Assembly (NCBI GenBank): GCA_019244165.1
Contig: JAFATA010000073.1
Coordinates: 1-55,968 of the forward strand
Origin: Pseudonocardiales bacterium
Lineage (GTDB): Bacteria > Actinomycetota > Actinomycetes > Mycobacteriales > Pseudonocardiaceae
DNA length: 55,968 nucleotides
Direction: 5' to 3'
Positions 18,121-33,859 of the stretch are shown piece by piece. Each line of letters opens with the position of its first letter. Within the stretch, counting starts at the first letter, position 1. A program made the position numbers and the translations under genes. The notes below the pieces were generated by a model. It ran no database searches, was not told the DNA's origin, and saw nothing but the letters and a program-made list of their open reading frames with translations.

Positions 18121-20193
18121 ATGAGCCACCCGCATGTTGGCTGGCCCTTCCCGCTTGGTGCCCACGCCGAGGGCGGGGGGGTGCGCTTCGCGGTGGTCTC
18201 CGATGTCGCCGAGGCCGTCGAGGTGTGCCTGTCGTCAGCCGAGGGCGAGGAGCTCCGCGTGCCGCTGACCGAACGCACCTTCGGGGTGTGGCACGGGCTG
18301 CTGCCCGGTGTGGGTCCCGGACAGCGCTACGGCTACCGGGTCCACGGGCCCTGGGACCCGGCGCGTGGCCTGTGGTGCAACCCGGCCAAGCTGCTGGTCG
18401 ACCCCTACACCCTGCGGGTCGAGGGCACCGTGAGCGGCCTGACCGCCGCGCTGGGCTACCGGGGCGATCCGGCCGGGCCGCGCAGCGAGGTCGACTCGCG
18501 GGGCAGCGTCCCGATGTCGGTGGTCACCGTCCGTGGCGGCCCGGACACCGGCGCCCGCCCGGATGTGCCGTGGGAGCAGACGGTGATCTACGAGCTGCAC
18601 GTGCGCGGCTTCACCCGCACCCACCCCGAGGTGCCGCCCGCGCACCGGGGCACCTATCTGGGGCTCGCGCACCCGGCGGTGATCTCCTACCTCACCGGTC
18701 TGGGTGTCACTACCGTGGAGCTGCTGCCGGTGTGCGCGTTCTGCCCGGAGGCGCCCCTGCTGCGCGCCGGGTTACCCAACTACTGGGGCTACTCGCCGCT
18801 GGCCCTGCTCGCGGTGCATCCGGGATACGCCGCGGTACCCGGCGCTGAGGTGCAGGAGTTCCGCACCATGGTGGCCGCGCTGCACGCCGCGGGACTGGAA
18901 GTCATCGTCGATGTGGTGGCCAACCACACCTGCGAGGGGGACATAGATGGCCCCACCCTGTGCTACCGGGGACTGGACGCGCCCGCCTACTACCTCACCC
19001 ACGACCTCACCGGCTGTGGCAATACCCTGGACAGCGGCTCCCCCACGGTGATCGCGCTGATCACCGACGCGCTGCGGTACTGGGCGGGCGAGCTGGGCGT
19101 CGACGGGTTCCGCTTTGATCTGGCCAGCGTGCTGGGGAGGCCTCGGGGCGGGCCGTTTGACCCGGCCGCCCCGCTGTTCACGGCGATCGTCTGCGACCCG
19201 CTGCTGCGCACCCGCAAGCTCATCGCCGAGCCCTGGGACGCCACCGGCGAGGGCTACCGGGTCGGCGGGTTCGGTGTGCACTTCAGCGAGTGGAATGGGC
19301 GCTACCGGGACGTGGTGCGCGATTTCTGGCGCGGTGTCCCCGGCGTCAGCCAGCTCGCCTCCCGGCTGGCGGGCAGCTCGGACCTCTATGCGGCAAGCGG
19401 GCGCCGGCCGTGGGCGTCGATCAACTACATCACCGCGCACGACGGGTTCACGCTGCGTGACCTGGTTTCCTACAACCGCAAACACAACGAAGCCAACGGG
19501 GAGGGCGGCACCGACGGCACCGACGACAACCGGTCCTGGAACTGCGGTGTCGAGGGGGAGACCGAGGACCTGGCGATCCAGCGCCTGCGCAGTCGCCAGG
19601 CCCGCAACATGCTGGCTACCCTGGTGCTGTCCACCGGCACCCCGATGCTGCTGGCCGGCGATGAGCGCTGGCGCACCCAGCGCGGCAACAACAACCCCTA
19701 CCGGCTCGACGACGAGACCTCGTGGCTGGACTGGTCCACAGACTCGGGCCGGGAGGCGATGACCGCGTTCACTCGCCGCCTGCTCGCGCTGCGCGCCACG
19801 ACGCCCGCGCTGCGCCAACCGGAGTTCTTCGAAGGCCGTGCCACCCCCCACGGCACCCCCGATTTAGTCTGGTTCCGTCCCGACGGCCACGTCATGCAGC
19901 TGGGCGACTGGCGAGACGCTCACCGGCAGACGCTGGGCATGTGGATCGACGGGGCTGACGTGCGCTCCCACCCACCCCCACCGACCACCGACTCGTGGCT
20001 GCTGGTGTTCCACGCCGGCTCGAACCCGATCACGGTCACGCTGCCGAGCCCGGAGTACGGCGAACGGTACGAGCCGGTCCTGGACACCAGGTTCCCGGAG
20101 GGAGTACCGGCGCGCCAGCGCGGCAGGCGGCCGGGTACCCGGATGACCGTGCCCGCCCGAACCCTCCTGGTGTTCCGCGCGGTGCGGGGCTAG
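18121..20193 (+). CDS. glgX: Glycogen debranching enzyme
   Basis: GH13 isoamylase-type enzyme of 690 residues that hydrolyses alpha-1,6 branches left by phosphorylase. An N-terminal CBM48-like domain (PLGAHAEGGGVRFAVVSDVAEAVEVCL) precedes the barrel with YELHVRGFTRTHP, DVVANHT, DGFRFDLASVLGR (nucleophile Asp) and LIAEPWD (acid/base Glu). YITAHDGFTLRDLVSYNRKHNEANGE and WLDWS are GlgX hallmarks. The gene is convergent with glgP, with stop codons overlapping by 4 bp, so the two degradative genes are paired. Confidence 0.95.
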   Translation: MSHPHVGWPFPLGAHAEGGGVRFAVVSDVAEAVEVCLSSAEGEELRVPLTERTFGVWHGLLPGVGPGQRYGYRVHGPWDPARGLWCNPAKLLVDPYTLRVEGTVSGLTAALGYRGDPAGPRSEVDSRGSVPMSVVTVRGGPDTGARPDVPWEQTVIYELHVRGFTRTHPEVPPAHRGTYLGLAHPAVISYLTGLGVTTVELLPVCAFCPEAPLLRAGLPNYWGYSPLALLAVHPGYAAVPGAEVQEFRTMVAALHAAGLEVIVDVVANHTCEGDIDGPTLCYRGLDAPAYYLTHDLTGCGNTLDSGSPTVIALITDALRYWAGELGVDGFRFDLASVLGRPRGGPFDPAAPLFTAIVCDPLLRTRKLIAEPWDATGEGYRVGGFGVHFSEWNGRYRDVVRDFWRGVPGVSQLASRLAGSSDLYAASGRRPWASINYITAHDGFTLRDLVSYNRKHNEANGEGGTDGTDDNRSWNCGVEGETEDLAIQRLRSRQARNMLATLVLSTGTPMLLAGDERWRTQRGNNNPYRLDDETSWLDWSTDSGREAMTAFTRRLLALRATTPALRQPEFFEGRATPHGTPDLVWFRPDGHVMQLGDWRDAHRQTLGMWIDGADVRSHPPPPTTDSWLLVFHAGSNPITVTLPSPEYGERYEPVLDTRFPEGVPARQRGRRPGTRMTVPARTLLVFRAVRG

Positions 20194-22793
20194 GTGGCCA
20201 GGTGGAGCAGGCCGAACTCGGCGGGGGTGGCCATCAACGGGTGTCGCGGCAGGACGCGCACGGTGTATCCGAGCAGCCCGGCATGCGGCAGGGGCAAGGT
20301 CGCCTCGAACCGGGCCTCCTCGCCGTCGTCCTTGGCGGAGTCCCGGCAGTCACGGGTACCGACCGACTGCATGGTCACCACACAGCAGTCCCACAGCTCG
20401 TCGTGGTCATCGACCCGGCCGACGATGGCCTGGACGTCCACGTCGCAGGACTGCAGCCCGGCCAACGCGACCGCCGCGCGGATGGTCATCTCCGAGCCCA
20501 GCTCCGGGGTGTCGGGCAGGCCCGAGATGTCCACCTGCGCGACCCGAACCCGGGGCCAGGCGGCGCGCAGCCGCGACCGGTACTCGGCCAGCACGCGTGC
20601 CCCGGTGAAGGAGTCGGCAGACACCTCCGTGGCCGAGCGGGCGGCCGGCGCGTAGAGGCGCTCCACGTATTCCTGCACCATCCGGCAGGCTTGCAGCTGG
20701 GGGCGAAGTGAGGTCAGGGTATGGCGCACCATGGACACCCAGCGGGTCGGCACACCGCCCGCGCCACGGTCGTAGAACCGGGGGGCGACCTGCGTGGCAA
20801 TTAGCTCATAAAGCGCGTGCGCCTCCAGGGCGTCGCGCCGTTCCGGGTTCTCGACGCCGTCCGCGGTCGGGATCGCCCAGCCGTTCTCCCCGTCGTAGAA
20901 CTCATCCCACCAGCCATCTCGGATGGACAGGTTCAGCCCACCGTTGAGCGCGGATTTCATCCCCGAGGTGCCACACGCCTCCCACGGCCGCAGGGGGTTG
21001 TTCAACCACACGTCGCACCCCCAGTACAGGTGGCGGGCCAGCGACATGTCGTAGTCGGGCAGGAACACCATCCGGTGCCGCACATCCGCCGCGTCGGCGA
21101 ACCGCACGACCTGCTGGATCAGCGCCTTGCCTCCGTCATCGGCGGGGTGGGACTTGCCAGCGATGATCAACTGCACCGGACGCTGGGGGTCCAGCAACAG
21201 GGCCCGGAGCCGTTCCGGGTCGCGCAGCATCAGGGTAAGCCGCTTGTAGGTGGGTACCCGGCGGGCGAAACCCATGGTGAGCACGTGGGGATCGAAGACC
21301 TGCGAGGTCCAGCCCAGCTCCGGCGCGGAGGCACCGCGCTCCAGCCAGGCGGCCCGGACCCGCCGGCGAACCTCGTCCACCAGCTTGGCGCGCAGCACGC
21401 AGCGCAGATCCCACAGCAGGGTGTCGGAAGCCAGGGCGATCGCACCGTCCGCCTCGCTGCTGCCGGAGTCCCCGAGCAGTCTGGTGATCTCCCGCGCCGC
21501 CCAGGTCGGGCCGTGCACCCCGTTGGTGACCGAGCAGATGGGCACCTCCTCGACGTCGAACTGCGGCCACAGCCCGCGGAACATCGCCCGTGACACGGTG
21601 CCGTGCAGCCGTGAGACGCCGTTGGCGCGCTGGGAAAGCCGCAGACCCATGTGCGCCATGTTGAACATCTCGGGGTTGTCCTCGGCGCCCAGTGCCAGCA
21701 CCCGGCTGACCTCGAGGCCGGGCAGCAGCGCAGCCTCGCCGGATGCGGCGGCGAAGTAGTGCTGCACCAGCTCTATGGGGAAGCGATCGATCCCGGCGGG
21801 CACGGGGGTGTGCACGGTGAACACGGTGCCAGCCCGCACCGCCGCCAGAGCCTCGTCGAAGCTCAACCCCTCGCCGCTGATCAGTTCCCGGATCCGTTCC
21901 AGACTCAGGAACCCGGCGTGGCCCTCGTTGGTGTGGAACACCTCAGGGTTGGGATGACCGGTAAGCTGGCAGAACAGCCGGATGGCGCGGAGGCCGCCGA
22001 TCCCAGCGAGGATCTCCTGCGTGATCCGGTGATCCTGGTCACCGCCGTAGAGCCGGTCGGTAATCCCGCGCAGCTCGTCAGGATTGTCTTCGATGTCGCT
22101 GTCTAGCAACAGCAGCGGCACGCGCCCGACGTCGGCCCGCCAGATCCGCGCTCGCAACGCCCGCCCACCGGGCATGCTGACCGCCACCAGCAGCGGTGCG
22201 CCGGTGCCGTCGGTCATCAGGTGCAGCGGCAGGCCCTGCGGGTCCAGCGCCGGGTAGTGCTCCAGTTGCCAGCCATCCAGTGACAACGACTGGCGGAAGT
22301 AGCCCGAGCGGTAGAGCAGCCCGACCCCGATCAGCGGCACTCCCAGGTCTGAGGCGGCCTTGAGGTGATCGCCCGCCAGCACGCCCAGGCCACCGGAGTA
22401 GAACGGCAGCACCTCGGAGACGCCGAACTCCATGGAGAAGTAGCCGATCGCCGCGGGCAGGGTCTGCGTCCGTTCCTGGGTCCGTTGCTGGTACGTCCGT
22501 TGGTGGTACCACCGGGGTGCCTCCAGGTAGTGGCGCAGGTCCTGGGCAAGCGCTCGGGTGCGGGCCACCACGGTCTCGTCGGCGGCCAACGCGGTGAGCC
22601 GCTGGATGGGGATCTCCCCCAGCAACCGCACCGGATCCCCGTTGACGGCAACCCAGGTGTCCGCGTCCAGCGAGGCGAACAGCTCCTGGGTCGGCGGGTG
22701 CCAGGTCCACCGCAGATTGGCGGCCAGCGTCTCTAGCGCCGCCAGCGGCCTCGGCAGCTGGGCACGGACGGTGAACCGGCGCAGTGCTCTCAT
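20190..22793 (-). CDS. glgP: Alpha-glucan (glycogen) phosphorylase, actinobacterial long type
   Basis: PLP enzyme of 867 residues that releases glucose-1-phosphate from glycogen ends. The N-terminal domain (RAQLPRPLAALETLAANLRWTWHPPTQELF) is that of the DUF3417-containing phosphorylases. ITNGVHGPTW-like SVTNGVHGPTWA, the FVPDY-like VFLPDYDMSLARHLYWGCDVWLNNP and EACGTSGMKSALNGGLN (PLP lysine) are all present. In mycobacteria glgP neighbours glgE; here 9 kb of accessory DNA separates them. Confidence 0.95.
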   Translation of the reverse strand: MRALRRFTVRAQLPRPLAALETLAANLRWTWHPPTQELFASLDADTWVAVNGDPVRLLGEIPIQRLTALAADETVVARTRALAQDLRHYLEAPRWYHQRTYQQRTQERTQTLPAAIGYFSMEFGVSEVLPFYSGGLGVLAGDHLKAASDLGVPLIGVGLLYRSGYFRQSLSLDGWQLEHYPALDPQGLPLHLMTDGTGAPLLVAVSMPGGRALRARIWRADVGRVPLLLLDSDIEDNPDELRGITDRLYGGDQDHRITQEILAGIGGLRAIRLFCQLTGHPNPEVFHTNEGHAGFLSLERIRELISGEGLSFDEALAAVRAGTVFTVHTPVPAGIDRFPIELVQHYFAAASGEAALLPGLEVSRVLALGAEDNPEMFNMAHMGLRLSQRANGVSRLHGTVSRAMFRGLWPQFDVEEVPICSVTNGVHGPTWAAREITRLLGDSGSSEADGAIALASDTLLWDLRCVLRAKLVDEVRRRVRAAWLERGASAPELGWTSQVFDPHVLTMGFARRVPTYKRLTLMLRDPERLRALLLDPQRPVQLIIAGKSHPADDGGKALIQQVVRFADAADVRHRMVFLPDYDMSLARHLYWGCDVWLNNPLRPWEACGTSGMKSALNGGLNLSIRDGWWDEFYDGENGWAIPTADGVENPERRDALEAHALYELIATQVAPRFYDRGAGGVPTRWVSMVRHTLTSLRPQLQACRMVQEYVERLYAPAARSATEVSADSFTGARVLAEYRSRLRAAWPRVRVAQVDISGLPDTPELGSEMTIRAAVALAGLQSCDVDVQAIVGRVDDHDELWDCCVVTMQSVGTRDCRDSAKDDGEEARFEATLPLPHAGLLGYTVRVLPRHPLMATPAEFGLLHLAT

Positions 22794-22931: not shown

Positions 22932-25634
22932 TCATCCGCGCTGGCTTTGGACGGGCACCAACGACGGCAGGGCCGCAGCGCTAACCTGGTGCTCTGTTAC
23001 AACGGGACAAGGTATCCGATTGGCAATCCACTTTTGGAGCCGGGCGTCCCGGAATTGATACACCGGGCCAACCGTTCGCAGGATCTGACGCCGACGAGCA
23101 TCCTCAAGAAACTGCACCAAAGGCGTCGGAGTGTTGTCTCGACGGTTCAGCTGTGCGCTGGCGAGCGCAGCCGCCCAGGTGCCGGAGGACACCAACCCGG
23201 AACCGAGCCCGGCCACGAGCCCGCCTACGAGCCCGTACTCGAGCCCATCCGGGAGCCCGTGACCGAACCCGTACGCCAGCCCCACCACGAGTCCAGCGAC
23301 GAGTCCAGCCACGCACCCGCCCTGACGTTCCTGGTGCCACAATGACTGCGGATCGAGCGGACGCGTAACCGCTGTGAATGGTCTGGACCACAGCAGGAGC
23401 CCAGCTGTCAGCCCGAAGCCGAGCCCAACCGCGAGGTCGAATATCAACTCAGACCTGTCCCCTGTTGTGAACAGGTGCCAAAACCAGAGAAGGGGCCCGG
23501 CCACGAGCCCGCTCAGGAACGTTGGGATAGGAGTTCTGCTCCCCCGGAGCTCACTCCGCGGCTCAGCAGGTCGTCCACCGAGCATGACAATGAGAACGTA
23601 AACGATGCCGTAGCCCCCGGTGCTCACGATTGCGATCATGATCCCCATGAGAAGAACCGTGGAGGTAGGAGTGCTGCTCCCCCGGAGCTGGCTACCCTGC
23701 AGAGAAGCCCATCCACCGACCACGATCACCAGCAGGTACCCGATTCCGACCAGGAATCCGTACTTGAGACCGGTCACAAGCTGCTCGTACGCGAATCCGT
23801 ATCCGAGCCCGGTCACGAGCCCAGCCACGAGCCCGATCACCAGTCCGGTGTGCAGGTTCGTGCGGCGGTCAGTGTGGGTATAAGCCCTGTTCCATTGCAG
23901 CCACCCCAGCCGCTGAGGCGGTCCGCCCCCCAGCGCAAATCCCAGCCCGATCACGAAACTAGACACCAGCCCGATCAGGAGCCCGATCACGAGCTTGTTC
24001 GGAAGCGTGGCCGTGAGGAGGTTCTGAAGTCCGGTCGCGATCCCGGCTCCGGCACTAAGAAGAACGACCATAGGGATGTCGGTCCTGCTCCACCGCTGTG
24101 GGGAAGACCGCTCACCGGGTGGGGACACGAGGAAACCGGGCCCAAACATAAACGCATACCCCAGTCCCCAGGTGAAGAAGACGATCGCGAATGTGATCAG
24201 GTGCCCGGCCTGGAACGCAGGGAGAAGATGCATGTAAGCGATAAGTCCGGGTATGGGACCCACCAGGAGCGCAGAGACCAGGACCAGGACGGCTACCGTG
24301 GCAAACGCCCTGGGCCATGCCGACATCCACCACAGGGTTCGCCACCACGCCAGGTCACGGGTCCTGTCCTTGTTCATCCGGCGCGCCAACTGCCCCAGCC
24401 CTCGTCGTGCCTGCTCCTCGGTGTATGCCGGGTGCTGGGAGTACGCGGCGGTCAGCAACCGGTCCAGAAGGTGGTCCTCGACCGCCTTCCGAGTGGGGAA
24501 CCGGCAATCGTCAAGGAACTCGTCGACCTTCTCCCCGGAGCTATAGGTCTCCCGGATCAGGGTCAGCATCAGCGGAGTCGCCAGGGCCTGAGCCAGCGTG
24601 CCCTTGGGGTGCTTGCGCAGGTGATCGATCACGAGCTGCCAGGGGACGGGCGGCGGGTCGATCTGGCCGCTAGCCAGGTACTGCGCCGCCTGCCTGGAGT
24701 CGATCGGCAGCAGCTCCAGCGCCGCTGCCCCCCGCAGGGGGCGGCCGCCGCGGACCGCCTCCTCTAGTTCCCCGGTGCGGGCAAGCACGACTAGTCGGAA
24801 GGTGGCCTGCTGATCCAGCGCGCGCAGCGCCACTGGGCGCAGCGCCTGGGGTATCTCAGCCAACCCATCCAGAATCACCGCCAGGTGACCGCCCTCGATA
24901 AGCTCCATCGCGGCATCCCGACCGTACTCCGGAGCCTGCAACAAGGCGTAGTCGCGCGCCAGGCAAGCAGCCAGCCACTCGGCGAAACGTTCCACGGTGG
25001 GGTCCCAGCCCTGCGGGGTGACCAGCACCGGCACCGGCACCCGCGCCCGATCCCTCGACGTCACCCCAGCCCGATGAGCCAGCGCAGCACGCAGCAGCAC
25101 AATCCCGGCGGCACTCTTCCCCGTGCCCGGTTTGCCCAGGATGACCATCCGCCCCGACCCTAGGCCGCCGTACACCCGGTGGAGATCGGCGAGCGTCCCA
25201 GAGCGCAACTGTTCCGCGGTGACCGCCACCATCCCAGGCAACGGCTCACACCGCATTCCACCAGATTCGCCGATCACCTCCGCGATCGGGCCTGTCACCG
25301 AGCGGAGTGGCCATCGCCACTGCACGGGAATCAGCGCCGGGTGGGTCAGCCCCTGCTCGGCGATGGCCCGATCCCACTGCCGGCACAGCTGCTCGGCCAG
25401 CTCATCGGCCGCCCGCTGCAACGGCAACGGCGGGGCACTGGTGCGTTGCGCTAGTCCCCACAGCCACCCAACGGCGCTAATACCCAGAGTAACCACGGCG
25501 ATGACCGTGCCAATCCGCGCGCCGATCGAATCCGCGGGGCTGAAGTGGACTCCCACCATAGCTAGCCCAACCGTCGCCGCGACGATCAGCAAAAACCCAG
25601 TCCAGCACCAGAGGGGCAGCCGGCCGAGCGTCAT
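22932..25634 (-). CDS. Membrane-anchored NACHT (STAND) NTPase with a glycine-rich polytopic C-terminus
   Basis: The 900-residue protein has two N-terminal transmembrane helices (about 10-30, 40-62). A NACHT NTPase follows with Walker A GKPGTGKS (167-174) and Walker B LAVILDGLAEIP (251-262), then a helical domain to about 440. The C-terminal 400 residues hold a dozen or so hydrophobic segments rich in repeated GL-x2-GL-x2-G units (GLVAGLVTGLGYGFAYEQ). A short cytosolic tail (VQFLEDARRRQILRTVGPVYQFRDARLQKWI) closes it. The latter recalls the winged-helix-like end of other actinobacterial NACHT proteins. STAND proteins are signal-activated switches, several in antiphage defence; a role here is inference. 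It lies 76 nt after the methyltransferase relic with its own promoter. Confidence 0.85.
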   Translation of the reverse strand: MTLGRLPLWCWTGFLLIVAATVGLAMVGVHFSPADSIGARIGTVIAVVTLGISAVGWLWGLAQRTSAPPLPLQRAADELAEQLCRQWDRAIAEQGLTHPALIPVQWRWPLRSVTGPIAEVIGESGGMRCEPLPGMVAVTAEQLRSGTLADLHRVYGGLGSGRMVILGKPGTGKSAAGIVLLRAALAHRAGVTSRDRARVPVPVLVTPQGWDPTVERFAEWLAACLARDYALLQAPEYGRDAAMELIEGGHLAVILDGLAEIPQALRPVALRALDQQATFRLVVLARTGELEEAVRGGRPLRGAAALELLPIDSRQAAQYLASGQIDPPPVPWQLVIDHLRKHPKGTLAQALATPLMLTLIRETYSSGEKVDEFLDDCRFPTRKAVEDHLLDRLLTAAYSQHPAYTEEQARRGLGQLARRMNKDRTRDLAWWRTLWWMSAWPRAFATVAVLVLVSALLVGPIPGLIAYMHLLPAFQAGHLITFAIVFFTWGLGYAFMFGPGFLVSPPGERSSPQRWSRTDIPMVVLLSAGAGIATGLQNLLTATLPNKLVIGLLIGLVSSFVIGLGFALGGGPPQRLGWLQWNRAYTHTDRRTNLHTGLVIGLVAGLVTGLGYGFAYEQLVTGLKYGFLVGIGYLLVIVVGGWASLQGSQLRGSSTPTSTVLLMGIMIAIVSTGGYGIVYVLIVMLGGRPAEPRSELRGSRTPIPTFLSGLVAGPLLWFWHLFTTGDRSELIFDLAVGLGFGLTAGLLLWSRPFTAVTRPLDPQSLWHQERQGGCVAGLVAGLVVGLAYGFGHGLPDGLEYGLVGGLVAGLGSGLVSSGTWAAALASAQLNRRDNTPTPLVQFLEDARRRQILRTVGPVYQFRDARLQKWIANRIPCPVVTEHQVSAAALPSLVPVQSQRG

Positions 25635-25676
25635 GCTCAGTAGTCTGCCGTAAACGTTCCGGCTAGCCTAAGGAAT

Positions 25677-25705
25677 TAATAACGCTCGGTTCACGGACGT
25701 TTCAA
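25677..25705 (-). promoter_or_regulatory. Promoter of the NACHT gene
   Basis: On the minus strand TTGAAA (25705-25700) is separated by 17 nt from TTATTA (25682-25677). This is a rare near-consensus pair in this GC-rich window. The transcript would start about 35 nt before the NACHT ATG at 25634, so the gene need not depend on the lasso operon. Confidence 0.6.
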
Positions 25706-25710
25706 GATCG

Positions 25711-26744
25711 TTAGCTGGGTGCAAGGCCGATCTGCTGCCCTTGCGGCGTGACGGTGAACCGCCAACGGTCGACGGTGGGCTCGCCGGCTGCGACCCACTG
25801 CCAGTAGGCCGTCTCCACCTCGGTCCAGAGCAGGCGGGGGCCGAACTGGCGTACCTGGTATGAATCGGCGGCGACGTCCGGCACGTGGCGCACGCTCGCC
25901 CAGGAGCGCGACCAGGGATCGAGGAACCACAGCACGCCTTCGTCTGAGTGGCGACCCGCGGGGCGGTAGAGGTGCCGGCATCGCGGCACGCGGATGCCGA
26001 TGGCGACGCGAACGTCGTAGTGCCCCGCAACCCGATAGGGGTGCAGTCCCGCAACATCGTGAAGGACGCCGGGCCGACGAGTCGGCCCTTCGCCGTGCCG
26101 TCCTGGCCCACGGTGAACGTGAGCAGCGCGCCGTTGTAGTACGGCGTATCCCAAGGCGTGACGATCCGCCCGCCGGGCCGGGTTTGTGCGATCCACGCAT
26201 ACGGCACCTCGCTGACCGCCGCCGTGGACAGAATCCGGTCATAAGGGGCGTTTGCAGGATAGCCTTGAGCACCGTCACCAGTGACGACGGCGACGCGGCC
26301 GAACCCTGCGGTGGCCAGCGCGTCCTTGGCGCGTCCAGCGATCCGCGGATCAACCTCGATGGTGGTGACCTGGTGCGCACCGAGGCGGGCGGCTAGCAGC
26401 GCGGCGTTGTAGCCGCTCCCGGTGCCGATCTCGCAGACAACCATCCCGAGCTGGAGATGTCGTGGCCGGTCAGCTCGGGTTCCAACCGGCTCGCCGTCGT
26501 CCACCTGGGTGATGACGGCTTCGTCGGCGTAAGCCAGCTGCAGCCAGGTTTCCGGATCGTCCTCGCGGCGCAGCGGAATGAGGTCGTTGATGTCATCGCA
26601 TCGCTCGTCCTCACGCCACACAGTGTCGGGGATGAACTCATGCCGAGGGACCGCGAGGAGCGCGTCTCGCCACTGCGGTGCCAGCATCGCGCGCACGGTC
26701 AGCTCCTCAACCATCTGTCGCCGCAGTAGCGCGGGATCGGTCAC
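25711..26744 (-). pseudogene. PIMT-like O-methyltransferase of RiPP clusters, scarred by deletion and frameshift
   Basis: The N-terminal part (LLRRQMVEELTVRAMLAPQWRDALLAVPRHEFIPD) and SAM motif CEIGTGSGYNAALLAARLGA match protein-isoaspartate-like methyltransferases of the FxLD type. Two scars are visible. Between ITQVDDGEPVGTR and the SAM motif the SxPxxVAxML stretch is missing (about 20 residues, in frame). After PASFTMLR about 25-30 residues are lost out of frame. The reading resumes in another frame as GLHPYRVAGHYDVRVAIG and runs to WRFTVTPQGQQIGLAPS (stop 25711). Unshifted, the frame runs to 25668 with meaningless sequence. The GTG start overlaps the cyclase-GNAT stop by 4 nt, so it was the third gene of the lasso operon. 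Relatives make aspartimide or methyl ester in lasso, lanthi- and graspetides. Confidence 0.75.
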
Positions 26745-28690
26745 TGTCCTGTGATCAATCCGCGAACGGCGGAAGGTGCTGAGAAGTCCTCGCTGAGTGC
26801 GTCCATCAGGATTTCGTCGCAGACCTCTCCAAGCCAGTAGCCGGACTGCCGGAGTCGCCCGGCAGGTTTGAACCCCGCGCTGGTGTAGGCGCGAATCCCA
26901 GCGGTGTTAGGTGCGAGAACTTTCAGCCAGATCATGCGCAAGGCAGAGACGTGGAAGCCGTAGTCGAGGGTGAGCAGGGTCGCCTCGGTGGCCAGCCCCC
27001 GGCCCCGTGCGGCGGCCCCGAGCACAATGATGAACTCGGCGGTCCGTACTTGGTGCTCTACCAGCAAGGTGGACAGGCCCACCGGACCGGGCTCACCGTC
27101 CAGGTCGTAGACGGTGAAGCGGACCTGGTTGAGAGAACCGCGGACTTGGTGACCGTAGCCCTCGGTGCGGTTCTCCAGGGAGTCTGGGACTTGACGACCG
27201 TAACCGAGGATCGCGCCGGGGTCATTGCTACCCTTGGTCGTCCGAGTCGCGATGGCCGGCGGCAGCAGGTCGCCGACTGCCATCGTGAGCAAGGGCTTGT
27301 AGCGCCACGGATCCCCACGCTGCCATGGCGGCACCGACAAGGCTGCCGCGATGACCGAGGAGTCGGTGTAGGGGTTGTGGATCGTCAGTCCAAACGCCTC
27401 GGCGAACTGGGCGTCCGCGCGGGCCGTGCGGCCCACCGTCTGGACCTCCCGCAGGGTTCGGGTGTTCGCATCCAACCGGTGGGTCACACGGCCCTCGCTG
27501 ACACCGTCATCCTGAGTGGCGAGGTCGATCGCCTGTGGTGTCAGCCAGTCCGCCGCTGCTGCGGTGTGTCCCCGCGGCAACGCTGCGGCAAGCAATGTCC
27601 ACGGGCTACAGCGTTGCAGCCGTGCCCATCCCAGTGTGTGGCCGATCAAGCGTATCCACCGGCCGGATCGGACGAGATCGGTGAGGTAGCCGTGTGGATG
27701 CAGCAGGCTGTCACCTCCATCGCCAGTCAGGTGGCAGTCACTGCCCAACTCAGCGAGCAAGGTGAACTCGGCGGCCAGCCGGGAGTAGCTGACAGTCGAC
27801 GGCGCGGGCTCATCGGTGGCGGGCACTCGGTCCAAGCCCGAGTACGGCAGGTGCTCGTTGGTCAGGTGCAGCAGCCTGTGCGCGATCCGGCTGCCGGCGT
27901 GCCGGACGGCGGCTTGGGCGTAGCCGAGGTCGCCGCCGCAGTCGGGTAGCCCGTCCGGGTGCAGCGTCACTGCAGTGACCGTCTTGGCGGGCGGGAGGTG
28001 TTCGCACGCCAGGAAACACAGCGACGTGGAATCCAGACCGCCGCTGAGATCGCATGTCGGAGTACTGGTCGTGGCGACGCGGGTCGCGACGCCACCCTCA
28101 AGCGCGTGGCGAAGGCGCTGGGCGGCCCCTGTCACGGTGTCGGGACGGATGAGCCACAACGGCATTACCACCAGGCCGCCGCCAGGTCGCATCGTGATCC
28201 GCGTCCCGGGAGGGGCAGCACGGACACCGGTAAACGGCGACCCGGACCCGCTGGCCGAGACCGCCGAGTCGGCGAGCGCACCGGCCAGCCATCTGACGTC
28301 GACGCCCGCGCCGGTCAGCTCCGCCAGTGCCCGCGCGCTGGAACCCCACGCGATCCCGCCGCCGAACGTGGTGGTGTAGAGGGGGCAGGCGCCACCGAGG
28401 TCGGTGAACACTGTGAGCTGCCGGTGATCTGCCCGGATGACGGTGTAGGCCCCAGGGCGGGCGGTGACCGCGTCTGTTAGCGCGTCCACCGCAAAGGTGA
28501 TGTCGGTGCCGCCGCACGGACCGATCACCGCAGCCCGCGAACTGCCCTGGTCAATGACACGGGCCTGGTGGCCAAGACACTGGCCGACGGCCCACAACGG
28601 GAACGGGCCGTCCCACAGCAGCCGCGCTCCCGCCGGTCGTGGCGATGGGGAGCGGAGTGTGGCGCCCGCATAGCCACCGAACCAGCACAT
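26741..28690 (-). CDS. Lasso peptide macrolactam cyclase fused to a GNAT acetyltransferase
   Basis: The protein has 649 residues. Residues 1-490 are an asparagine-synthetase-like lasso cyclase: MCWFGGYAG start, TDLGGACPLY, ATP-pyrophosphatase loop CDLSGGLDSTSL (about 215-225), LTGDGGDSL, and HNPYTDSSVIAAALSVPPW, ending near AIATRTTKG. The usual cyclase C-terminus beyond TTKG is absent. From about 497 a RimJ/RimL-type GNAT follows in frame (LGYGRQVPDSLEN, VRFTVYDLDGEPGPVG, motif A FIIVLGAAARGRGLATEATLLTL, NTAGIRAYTSAGFKPAGRLRQSGYW). In albusnodin clusters the acetyltransferase is, to my knowledge, separate. ATG 28690 is chosen for GGAG 6 nt upstream; TTG 28702 extends it by four. Predicted jobs are leader-freed core cyclisation and lysine acetylation. 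Confidence 0.85.
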   Translation of the reverse strand: MCWFGGYAGATLRSPSPRPAGARLLWDGPFPLWAVGQCLGHQARVIDQGSSRAAVIGPCGGTDITFAVDALTDAVTARPGAYTVIRADHRQLTVFTDLGGACPLYTTTFGGGIAWGSSARALAELTGAGVDVRWLAGALADSAVSASGSGSPFTGVRAAPPGTRITMRPGGGLVVMPLWLIRPDTVTGAAQRLRHALEGGVATRVATTSTPTCDLSGGLDSTSLCFLACEHLPPAKTVTAVTLHPDGLPDCGGDLGYAQAAVRHAGSRIAHRLLHLTNEHLPYSGLDRVPATDEPAPSTVSYSRLAAEFTLLAELGSDCHLTGDGGDSLLHPHGYLTDLVRSGRWIRLIGHTLGWARLQRCSPWTLLAAALPRGHTAAAADWLTPQAIDLATQDDGVSEGRVTHRLDANTRTLREVQTVGRTARADAQFAEAFGLTIHNPYTDSSVIAAALSVPPWQRGDPWRYKPLLTMAVGDLLPPAIATRTTKGSNDPGAILGYGRQVPDSLENRTEGYGHQVRGSLNQVRFTVYDLDGEPGPVGLSTLLVEHQVRTAEFIIVLGAAARGRGLATEATLLTLDYGFHVSALRMIWLKVLAPNTAGIRAYTSAGFKPAGRLRQSGYWLGEVCDEILMDALSEDFSAPSAVRGLITGQ

Positions 28691-28756
28691 CACGGTCTCC
28701 AATCCCGCAGCCGAGGCGGTGCCCCGGTGGGTGGACCCGGGGCACCGCCCGCAGGC

Positions 28757-28852
28757 TCAGTTGTAGGTGTAGCGCTTGTCGTCCCTGCCGGCGCCGCCTT
28801 GGCCGCGGGTCACATCCGCCGCGTCGCCCAGGTCCACCACGAACTCGTCCAT
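28757..28852 (-). CDS. Albusnodin-like lasso peptide precursor (31 aa)
   Basis: ATG 28852 follows AAGGAAGGA by 9 nt, a strong ribosome-binding site. The 16-residue leader (MDEFVVDLGDAADVTR) carries the Thr at -2 typical of lasso precursors. The 15-residue core is GQGGAGRDDKRYTYN. Gly1 can form an isopeptide with Asp8, giving an 8-residue ring, and Lys10 sits where albusnodin is acetylated. The core shares GQGG, an acidic residue 8, DKR and YN with albusnodin as I recall it. The cyclase-GNAT gene starts 66 nt downstream. A longer in-frame start at 28906 would add a YxxP-containing stretch but has no RBS. Confidence 0.85.
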   Translation of the reverse strand: MDEFVVDLGDAADVTRGQGGAGRDDKRYTYN

Positions 28853-29050: not shown

Positions 29051-30364
29051 ATGGGAGGGTGTGACGCTCATCCGTGGGTCTCCGTCCGAGCCCGGGAGCT
29101 GATCGCCGCCCGCGACGTCGGAGGCGTGGTCAGGCTCGCGCGCCAAGCACGCGGCTGGCGGCAGATCGATCTTGGCAAGCACACCGGATATTCGGCCTCG
29201 ACGATCTCCCGCCTGGAGACCGGCCGCCGGGGATCTTTTGATGTGGGCATGCTGCACCGTGTCACCCGCGCGGTGGGGATACCTCCCGAGGTGCTCGGCG
29301 CGTTGCTGGGCATCCCTGCCGCTGTCCCCGCTAGGGTGACCGGGATCATCGGTCGACCGGCGGAAGGCGACCCTGTGCGCCGTCGCGTGCTCATCACCGC
29401 AGCAGGACTTACGGTCCCGCAATGGATGCTGGCAAGGCTTGACGACGCGCTGGTGTTGCTGCCCCCGCCGGCCCGGCCGACCACCCCGTCCGAGATCGCC
29501 GGTCGGCTGGCCCAGGCCCGCACATGGTTCGACGCCAGCGACCTCGTTTACCTCCTAGCCGATCTACCCGACCTGCTCGCCACCGCTCACCACGCAGCGG
29601 AGAACGGCGACCCAGACGCCTACACCCGTCTGGCTGCCTGCTACGACCTAGCGACCGAGGCACTGAGCAAGATCGGACATTACGGCACCAGCCGCATCAC
29701 CGCCGACCGCGCCACCATCTTCGCGGAACGCTCCGGCTCCCCGATCGCGATGGCCGCCGCCGCCCGCTGCCTCAGCATCGTCCTGCGCCACGAAGGTCGC
29801 CACCAGATCGCCGACCAGATCACCCTCGAGGCAACCACACGCCTGGAGGCGACCGGGCTGATCCTCCCCGCGCAGTCCGCTGCCTACGCCCAGATGCTGT
29901 GCACCTGCGCCTATAACGCCGCGCAGGCCGCTGACCGCGACCGCGCGCTAGAGTTGATCGCTGAGGCTGAGCGGGCCGCCGCGCGGTTGCCGGAGCACCC
30001 CGTTGCTGGGCAACTGCTCACCGTCACCCCCGCCCAGGTCACTCTCTACCGCGTCGGCGTGCACTGGTCGCTGGGCGACGCTGGCGCGGCCCTGAACGCC
30101 GGACGAAGACTCCACCCGGGCCAGTTCCCCACCCCCGAACGACGCGGACGGCTGCACACCGACCTCGCACGGGCATGGTGGCAGTGGGGAAAGCCCGACC
30201 AGGCCGCGCGGGCGTTGCTGGCCGCGCACCGGCAAGCACCCGCCGAGGTCCGCGACCGACCGTCGATGCGCGCGATCGTCAGCGACCTCCTCGAGCGGCA
30301 TCCCCGGGTGGCCAGCGTGCGTGAACTCGCCGTCACCGTGGGCCACCACACGATCGGTCGATGA
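29051..30364 (+). CDS. XRE-family regulator with TPR-like domain, divergent from the lasso operon
   Basis: The 437-residue protein has a helix-turn-helix at about 20-75 (VRLARQARGWRQIDLGKHTGYSASTISRLETGRRG). A long helical C-terminal region follows (residues 150-420, many A/L-rich TPR-like repeats such as QSAAYAQMLCTCAYNAAQAADRDRALELIAEAERAAARLPE). It differs from the twin regulators at 1174/4269 in HTH and linker. Divergent position and the shared palindrome make it the likely regulator of the lasso locus; activation versus repression cannot be told. ATG 29051 has no obvious Shine-Dalgarno. Confidence 0.85.
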   Translation: MGGCDAHPWVSVRARELIAARDVGGVVRLARQARGWRQIDLGKHTGYSASTISRLETGRRGSFDVGMLHRVTRAVGIPPEVLGALLGIPAAVPARVTGIIGRPAEGDPVRRRVLITAAGLTVPQWMLARLDDALVLLPPPARPTTPSEIAGRLAQARTWFDASDLVYLLADLPDLLATAHHAAENGDPDAYTRLAACYDLATEALSKIGHYGTSRITADRATIFAERSGSPIAMAAAARCLSIVLRHEGRHQIADQITLEATTRLEATGLILPAQSAAYAQMLCTCAYNAAQAADRDRALELIAEAERAAARLPEHPVAGQLLTVTPAQVTLYRVGVHWSLGDAGAALNAGRRLHPGQFPTPERRGRLHTDLARAWWQWGKPDQAARALLAAHRQAPAEVRDRPSMRAIVSDLLERHPRVASVRELAVTVGHHTIGR

Positions 30365-31793: not shown

Positions 31794-31888
31794 GGGTGCA
31801 GTTACGAGTGCCACATTCCGCGCGCCGGCCGGCCGCTACCGGCAGACTGGAGAACGACGCTGGGAGGCGAGGCGGAGGGGCGGCAACG

Positions 31889-33859
31889 GTGAGTGGTCGG
31901 ATCGCCATCGACGATGTGATGCCCGTCGTCTCGTGTGGGAAGTATCCCAGCAAGGCGGTGGTCGGCGAGCACGTTCCGGTCGGTGCCACGGTGTGGCGCG
32001 AGGGGCACGACGCGGTGGGCGCCACGGTGGTCTGGGAGGGTCCCGGCACGGCGCCGGCCCGCGAGATCCGGATGCAACCCGGGCCACCGGGCACCGACCA
32101 GTTCCTGGCGACGGTGGTGGCGGACCGGGTGGGCTGGTGGAGCTTCCGGGTGGATGCGTGGGCCGACCCCTGGGAGAGCTGGCGGCACGCGATCGAGGTG
32201 AAGATCGACGCTGGCCAGACCGCGGCGGAGCTGGAGAACGACCTGATCGTGGGGGCCCAGCTGCTGGAGCGAGCGGCTCGGCTGTCCGCCACACGGACTA
32301 ACCAGGGCGCGCTGCGGGCTGCCGCAGCGGCGTTGCGGGACACCGGGCGTCCCCTCGACGAGCGGGTCGGGCCGGCGCTGAGCGCACCGGTGACGCAGAG
32401 CCTGGCTGCCAACCCGATCCGGGATCTGCTCACTCAAGGCCCTACCCACCATGTGTGGGTCGATCGCCCCCGAGCACTGTTCAGCGCCTGGTATGAGTTC
32501 TTCCCGCGATCCACCGGCGGCTGGGACGCCCAGGGCAACCCGGTGCACGGAACCTTCACGACGGCCACCCACGAGCTGGACCGGATCGCCGGCATGGGTT
32601 TCGACGTGGTGTACCTACCACCGATCCACCCGATCGGCGAGGTGTATCGCAAGGGCGCCAACAACGTCATGCAGGCCGGAGACGACGATGTCGGCTCACC
32701 GTGGGCGATCGGTTCGGCCGAGGGCGGGCACGACGCGGTACACCCCCGGCTGGGCACCCTGGAGGACTTTGCGGCCTTCGTCGCCAGGGCCGGCGAACTG
32801 GGCATGGAAGTCGCGCTGGACTTCGCGCTGCAATGCGCCCCGGATCACCCCTGGGCCAAGGAGCACCCGGAGTGGTTCACCATCCGCCCGGACGGGACGA
32901 TCGCCTACGCGGAGAACCCACCCAAGCGCTACCAGGACATCTACCCGCTCAACTTCGACTCCGACCCCCGCGGCATCTACGCCGAGATGCTGCGGGTGAT
33001 GCTGTTCTGGATCCAGCGCGGGGTGCGGATCTTCCGGGTGGACAACCCGCACACCAAGCCCCCGGACTTCTGGCAGTGGCTGATCTGGCACGTCAAGGAC
33101 CGCTACCCGGATGTGCTGTTCCTCTCCGAGGCGTTCACCCGCCCGGCTCGGCTCTACGGGCTGGCTCGGCTGGGCTTCACCCAGTCCTACACCTACTTCA
33201 CCTGGCGCACCAGCAAACGAGAGCTCACCGAGTACGCGACAGAGCTGGCGTCCCGCGTGGACGAGATGCGACCGAACTTCTTCGTCAACACCCCGGACAT
33301 CCTGCACGCCTCACTGCAGCGGGGCGGGCCTGGCATGTTCGCTATCCGGGCCGTGCTGGCCGCCACGCTGTCCCCGTCGTGGGGTGTCTACTCCGGCTTT
33401 GAGCTTTTCGAGAACGCACCGGCCGCACCGGGCAGCGAGGAGTACCTGAACAGCGAGAAATACCAGCTGCGCCCCCGGGACTTCGCCGCCGCGGCGGCGG
33501 CGGGCCGATCCCTGGAACCGTGGATCGCCCGGCTCAACGCGATCCGGCGGGCCCACCCCGCCCTGCAACAGCTGCGCACGCTGCGGTTTCACCGCGTGGA
33601 CAGTGAGTCGCTGCTGGCGTACTCCAAGACCGACCCGGCCAGCGGGGACACCGTGATCTGCGTGGTCACCCTGGAGCCGTTCAGCACCGTGAGCGCAACC
33701 CTCTGGCTGAACCTGCCGGCGCTGGGCCTGGGCTTGCAGGACCGTTTCGACGTCTACGACGAGGTCAGCGGCGAGACCTACCACTGGGGAGAAGCCAACT
33801 ACGTGCAACTCCAACCCTGGCGCGCGGTGGCCCACGTGCTGTGGCTGCGCCACCCGTGA
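31889..33859 (+). CDS. glgE: Alpha-1,4-glucan:maltose-1-phosphate maltosyltransferase
   Basis: GH13_3 enzyme of 656 residues that extends alpha-glucan with maltosyl units from maltose-1-phosphate. The N-terminal dimerisation/S domains begin [23 protein letters not shown]. The barrel shows [53 protein letters not shown] (nucleophile Asp) and [11 protein letters not shown] (acid/base Glu). GTG 31889 is preferred because GGAGGGG precedes it; the frame is open back to 31796. With TreS, Mak and GlgB in the same window the full route from trehalose to glucan is encoded. Confidence 0.96.

Follow-up and report, generated by a model that had tools for sequence, protein, structure and literature searches.

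The window, by which we mean the whole stretch of 55,968 nucleotides analysed, lies on contig C29 of a 3.7-Mb assembly of an uncultured Pseudonocardiales actinobacterium (85 contigs, 88% complete, 4.4% contamination) and carries a lasso peptide cluster that runs on the minus strand, with a 31-codon precursor gene first and a 649-codon frame after it. The precursor gene A (28757..28852, minus strand) matches NF033525, the albusnodin family of lasso peptides, with 43.2 bits against a cut-off of 30. The stop codon of the long frame is overlapped by the GTG of a gene for a PIMT-type (TIGR04188-like) methyltransferase (25711..26744, minus strand; frame 25668-26744), which is broken into two pieces in different frames. 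Divergent from the cluster stands a helix-turn-helix regulator gene (29051..30364, plus strand; Pfam HTH_31), of which a 47% identical copy adjoins the cluster at one related locus, L080, and the end adjoins the cluster remnant at another, L051. The surroundings are those of glucan metabolism: glgX / a glucan phosphorylase-like gene (18121-22793) and a glgE-like gene (31796-33859) flank the lasso locus. A 900-residue protein encoded at 22932-25634 on the minus strand has no Pfam or NCBIfam match; inspected by eye, it shows extended hydrophobic segments and the nucleotide-binding motif GKPGTGKS.

Precursor A consists of a 16-residue leader, MDEFVVDLGDAADVTR, and the core GQGGAGRDDKRYTYN, the cleavage point having been placed tentatively from a threonine at -2 and from the relatives. 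We also considered a longer leader, given that the frame is open upstream of the ATG; the purine-rich AAGGAAGGA in front of this codon favours the 16-residue form. The core lines up with the cores of 17 relatives and has Gly1, Asp8 and Lys10 just where the earlier note on this DNA had placed them. Lys10 occupies the family position, and Glu8 accompanies it in 16 of the 17 relatives, the exception being L087, in which the pattern is shifted by one; at position 8 the window precursor has Asp. Because most of the precursors compared were collected with a pattern that already requires an acid and a lysine (L082 was added via a looser pattern), this tally leans towards these residues. A profile search with NF033525 returned 18 matching places, namely the window and the same 17 loci. 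In this family, leader removal falls to the B protein, and ring closure, between Gly1 and the side chain of an acidic residue, to the cyclase; Lys10 receives its acetyl group from the GNAT, apparently prior to folding. Judging from conservation, position 8 probably supplies the ring acid. Passages in two reviews (PMC9266682; PMC8498205) describe albusnodin as acetylated at Lys10 and its genes as an ACBT cluster.

The 649-codon frame (26744-28690, or 26741-28690 including the stop codon, minus strand) translates into 649 residues in which a cyclase is followed by a GNAT acetyltransferase. Residues 1-488 (27227..28690) match NF033561, the albusnodin/ikarugamycin macrolactam cyclase, with 504 bits against a cut-off of 300, over profile positions 1-496 of 561. 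Positions 497-561 are missing, and the tail of about 80 residues that follows the RTTKG motif is gone, leaving the cyclase short of full length. At the joint (27226..27227, minus strand), the cyclase sequence ...RTTKGS meets the GNAT sequence NDPGAILGYG..., with one codon between those for RTTKG and NDP and the exact break point uncertain by about one codon. Residues 489-649 (26744..27226) lack the first 30 or so residues of a GNAT and match Pfam Acetyltransf_3 only from profile position 52 of 138 on, so that the acetyltransferase is present fused behind the cyclase and without its start. As assembled, the fused frame is real: it is open across the joint over all 649 codons, far beyond chance. 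The translation and the NF033561 and Acetyltransf_3 matches thus confirm what had been noticed at first, a cyclase that ends after RTTKG and runs in frame into an albusnodin-type GNAT, and the scores for NF033525 (43.2 bits) and NF033561 (504 bits) uphold the assignment to an albusnodin-like lasso locus. Searches of contig C29 for the B protein (leader peptidase/RRE) yielded neither a PF13471 (B2-type) nor a PF05402 (PqqD-type) match, and the cluster lacks the B gene of an albusnodin-family cluster.

Alignments with separate homologues marked the absent cyclase tail and GNAT N-terminus as conserved parts. The cyclase search scored the 7990 candidates sharing most words with the query; from the best 120 of its 190 matches, the 111 sequences of 540-660 aa were used. 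In each of these 111 full-length cyclases, RTTKG is followed by 80 or more residues (median 85). Among the 56 columns conserved to at least 95%, the 48 that precede the cut are all kept and the 8 that follow it are lost. K486, just spared by the cut, pairs with Lys443 of beta-lactam synthetase, which we take to have a catalytic role. In the GNAT alignment (108 of 120 sequences used), 58 of 59 near-invariant columns within the remnant are kept and 7 are lost with the missing start. The closest GNATs, P0125-P0128, stand alone, measure 188-193 aa and are 87-92% identical to the remnant. The closest cyclase among the matches listed, P0003, is 79% identical and keeps its tail to profile position 535. 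Its frame runs on past this position, and its last 60 residues match the B remnant of L051, read out of frame, at 85%; B-gene DNA therefore follows the P0003 cyclase, and the shift at the end of its frame is either a lesion or an error.

We examined gene order at 21 loci: 19 stretches from 18 genomes of the family, L009 on contig C26 of the same genome as the window, and L051. Cyclase, B and GNAT are separate and in the order C-B-T, with the B frame between the other two, at 17 of them. The cyclase gene itself is damaged in some of these 17: it is interrupted by a TGA in L083 and lies in pieces in L091 and L009. As for the remaining four, L086 ends within B at a contig edge, L092 holds B and T only, L093 holds T only, and L051 is broken. 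The text of a review (PMC8498205) gives the order ACBT for albusnodin, in agreement with the C-B-T of the relatives. According to tblastn spacing, the stretch from RTTKG to NDP measures 1,057-1,219 bp in the 17 relatives (median, 1,104), and what it encodes, from the end of the cyclase through B to the beginning of the GNAT, is precisely the block missing from the window. The earlier note had suggested a new lasso enzyme architecture and had named separate full-length cyclase and GNAT genes in all relatives, with this fusion unique and no product detected, as evidence that would tell against it. Separate genes are what we found, in 17 of 21 loci, with the other four contig-cut, partial or broken. 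A new architecture was set aside as the leading interpretation, given that the relatives compared possess what is missing at the joint, a whole gene included. A frameshift or sequencing error at the joint was also ruled out, since about 1.1 kb is gone rather than one or two bases. The deletion product that the same note had offered as its alternative fits the comparison, given that the missing block equals the C-to-T stretch of the relatives; the loss of B and the broken methyltransferase gene next door go unmentioned in that note.

We consider it most likely that the fusion was left behind when about 1.1 kb was recently deleted, in frame, from a decaying albusnodin-type cluster; it would then be a scar and not a new kind of enzyme. 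The ancestral cluster would have had the order A-C-B-T. A single deletion would have taken the cyclase tail, the whole B gene and the GNAT start, joining what remained of cyclase and GNAT into one frame of 649 codons. Lacking B and the cyclase tail, the locus would fail to produce a lasso peptide; any fusion protein translated from it would be inactive or at most bind ATP or acetyl-CoA. Our sequence comparisons thus lead us to predict a dead cluster. Several observations count against a scar: the frame is open, the conserved columns before and after the joint are nearly all kept, K486 is spared, the precursor is intact, a second fusion exists (P0124, described below), and dN/dS relative to L051 is below 1, at 0.38 for the cyclase (288 codons) and 0.16 for the GNAT (159 codons). 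We assume that these dN/dS values mainly reflect evolution prior to the deletion.

Deletion also fits the condition of the orthologous cluster in L051 (JAFAXZ010000125.1), which comes from another Pseudonocardiales MAG, of the same genus. L051 shares 85% DNA identity with the window over cyclase and GNAT and has the end of the same divergent regulator (82% identical), but its lesions differ. The end of the regulator is joined to the start of the cyclase, window positions 28665 and 30122 meeting at L051 position 3546, so that L051 lacks precursor A and the beginnings of both the regulator and the cyclase. Through another deletion, cyclase residue ~320 runs straight into mid-B, and the GNAT N-terminus contains a TAA. 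These differing deletions in the orthologous cluster of a related genome fit loss of the pathway in this lineage. They bear as well on another idea, in which misassembly of a MAG produced the joint and C, B and T are in reality separate genes of the organism. The state of the assembly, with its 85 contigs, incompleteness and contamination, and the presence of B in the closest relatives make such an error conceivable, but the joint is in frame and in unique sequence, its DNA has no repeat evident by eye, and the different deletions of L051 in the same cluster fit real decay. We consider an assembly error unlikely.

Decay extends to the gene that adjoins the fusion. Both pieces of the PIMT gene match NCBIfam TIGR04188, the graspetide type that it resembles best, below the cut-off. 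Four other copies from the genus, one of them from the same genome, show that 24 residues are missing between the two out-of-frame pieces. Leaving aside the window gene itself, its four best matches within the genus share 64-68% identity with it. An intact PIMT beside the lasso genes, as expected for an aspartimide-containing lasso peptide, is thus absent from the window locus, and we ruled out aspartimide modification by this neighbour because its gene is broken. The genome as a whole has 25 matches to the PIMT, the window copy included. The ATP-grasp family TIGR04187 is matched 23 times, in six cases above the cut-off, and several of these matches are neighbouring pieces in different frames. 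The genome contains many graspetide-type loci, some of them apparently broken. Three of its other lasso-type loci, L011 (contig C59), L010 (C12) and L014 (C58), have PIMT-like genes within a few kb that are 36-40% identical to a relative's intact PIMT; these are possible candidates for aspartimide lasso peptides.

The fusion was also sought in other proteins and genomes, in searches that extend to relatives with short exact words in common, or to a single genome per species. The GNAT-region search, which admitted proteins of 0.55-1.75 times the fusion length (2022 candidates), returned two matches, P0123 and P0124. P0123, a GNAT of the same clade as that of the fusion, lacks 15 residues between two GYG motifs that P0125 has. 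P0124, a metagenomic protein of 529 aa, was the only one with both domains. Like the window fusion, it joins a cyclase of the same family and a GNAT in one frame without B, but its cyclase is cut much earlier, at profile position 339 of 561 and before RTTKG, and its GNAT is nearly complete. The search for the same fusion elsewhere, as the earlier note had proposed, thus produced one other cyclase-GNAT fusion but not the same joint: P0124 is an unrelated protein with a separate joint, which suggests that cyclase-to-GNAT deletions arise now and then in A-C-B-T clusters. None of the best 120 of the 190 cyclase matches carried a GNAT (phmmer), and no other protein among the matches listed in the cyclase and GNAT-region searches had the window joint. 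Among 394 genomes of the class, 17 had a match, that of the window included, and in all seven same-contig pairs of C and T outside the window's own genome the two were apart; these counts are lower bounds, given that at most 3 candidates were scored per genome, as are those of a companion search that scored at most 4. In the literature on albusnodin and on cyclase-acetyltransferase fusion, no title or opening of an abstract among those listed reported such a fusion.

These searches weigh on the proposal that the fusion is a working two-headed enzyme, which closes the ring, acetylates Lys10 and relies on B supplied by another locus, for instance on contig C26. This contig carries a second albusnodin-like cluster (L009, 6647-9800) in which A, B and T are open and the cyclase is broken by a frame change and a TGA; the genome therefore has a B protein, and the open frame and conserved residues of the fusion point the same way. 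Against it stand the loss of a cyclase tail found in 111 of 111 relatives and of about 30 GNAT residues, the absence of B from contig C29, the lack of the joint in any other match listed, the 0 of 7 same-contig pairs fused in the 394 genomes, and the broken PIMT gene next to it. We regard a two-headed enzyme as highly improbable, and would give equally little credence to its fuller form, in which a tail-less cyclase and tethered GNAT are fed by the C26 B protein and two damaged clusters jointly make one or two acetylated lasso peptides.

Structure prediction for the whole fusion yielded a confident cyclase part and a poor GNAT part; the junction was also poor and was set aside, with no evidence drawn from it. 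As a mixed alignment may have been at fault for the GNAT part, we folded this part alone. Its acetyl-CoA core was then modelled confidently, and its first 29 residues were without order because their partner segment is gone. The GNAT part is 56% identical to PDB 9iy3 ('Iterative acetyltransferase on lasso peptides from Actinomycetes'), of which chain residues 34-193 are matched but the first 33 have no counterpart in the remnant; neither entry codes nor words led to a paper for this structure. A conserved, confidently modelled acetyl-CoA core (58 of 59 columns) would suit a fusion in which the cyclase is dead but the acetyltransferase still works and has been retained for protection from a related peptide that can be acetylated, and a 2026 review (PMC13352647) describes lysine acetylation as a self-resistance mechanism for triculamin and lariocidin. 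The remnant has nevertheless lost its first 30 or so residues, including 7 near-invariant positions, and the genome has other GNATs of the same type on contigs C26 and C7, making such a role extremely improbable.

Genome mining would list this locus as a cyclase-acetyltransferase fusion; comparison shows that it is most likely a scar, in an albusnodin-type cluster that carries different deletions in two related genomes. Should the fusion work after all, the cyclase tail would be dispensable, and acetylation and cyclisation could be tethered. Compared with the A-C-B-T cluster of albusnodin in Streptomyces albus, the window has the same precursor family (NF033525), cyclase family and GNAT type, with Gly1, an acid at core position 8 and Lys10. 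It differs in having lost B, the end of the cyclase and the beginning of the GNAT, in that C and T form one frame, and in that Asp8 replaces the Glu8 of 16 of the 17 family loci.
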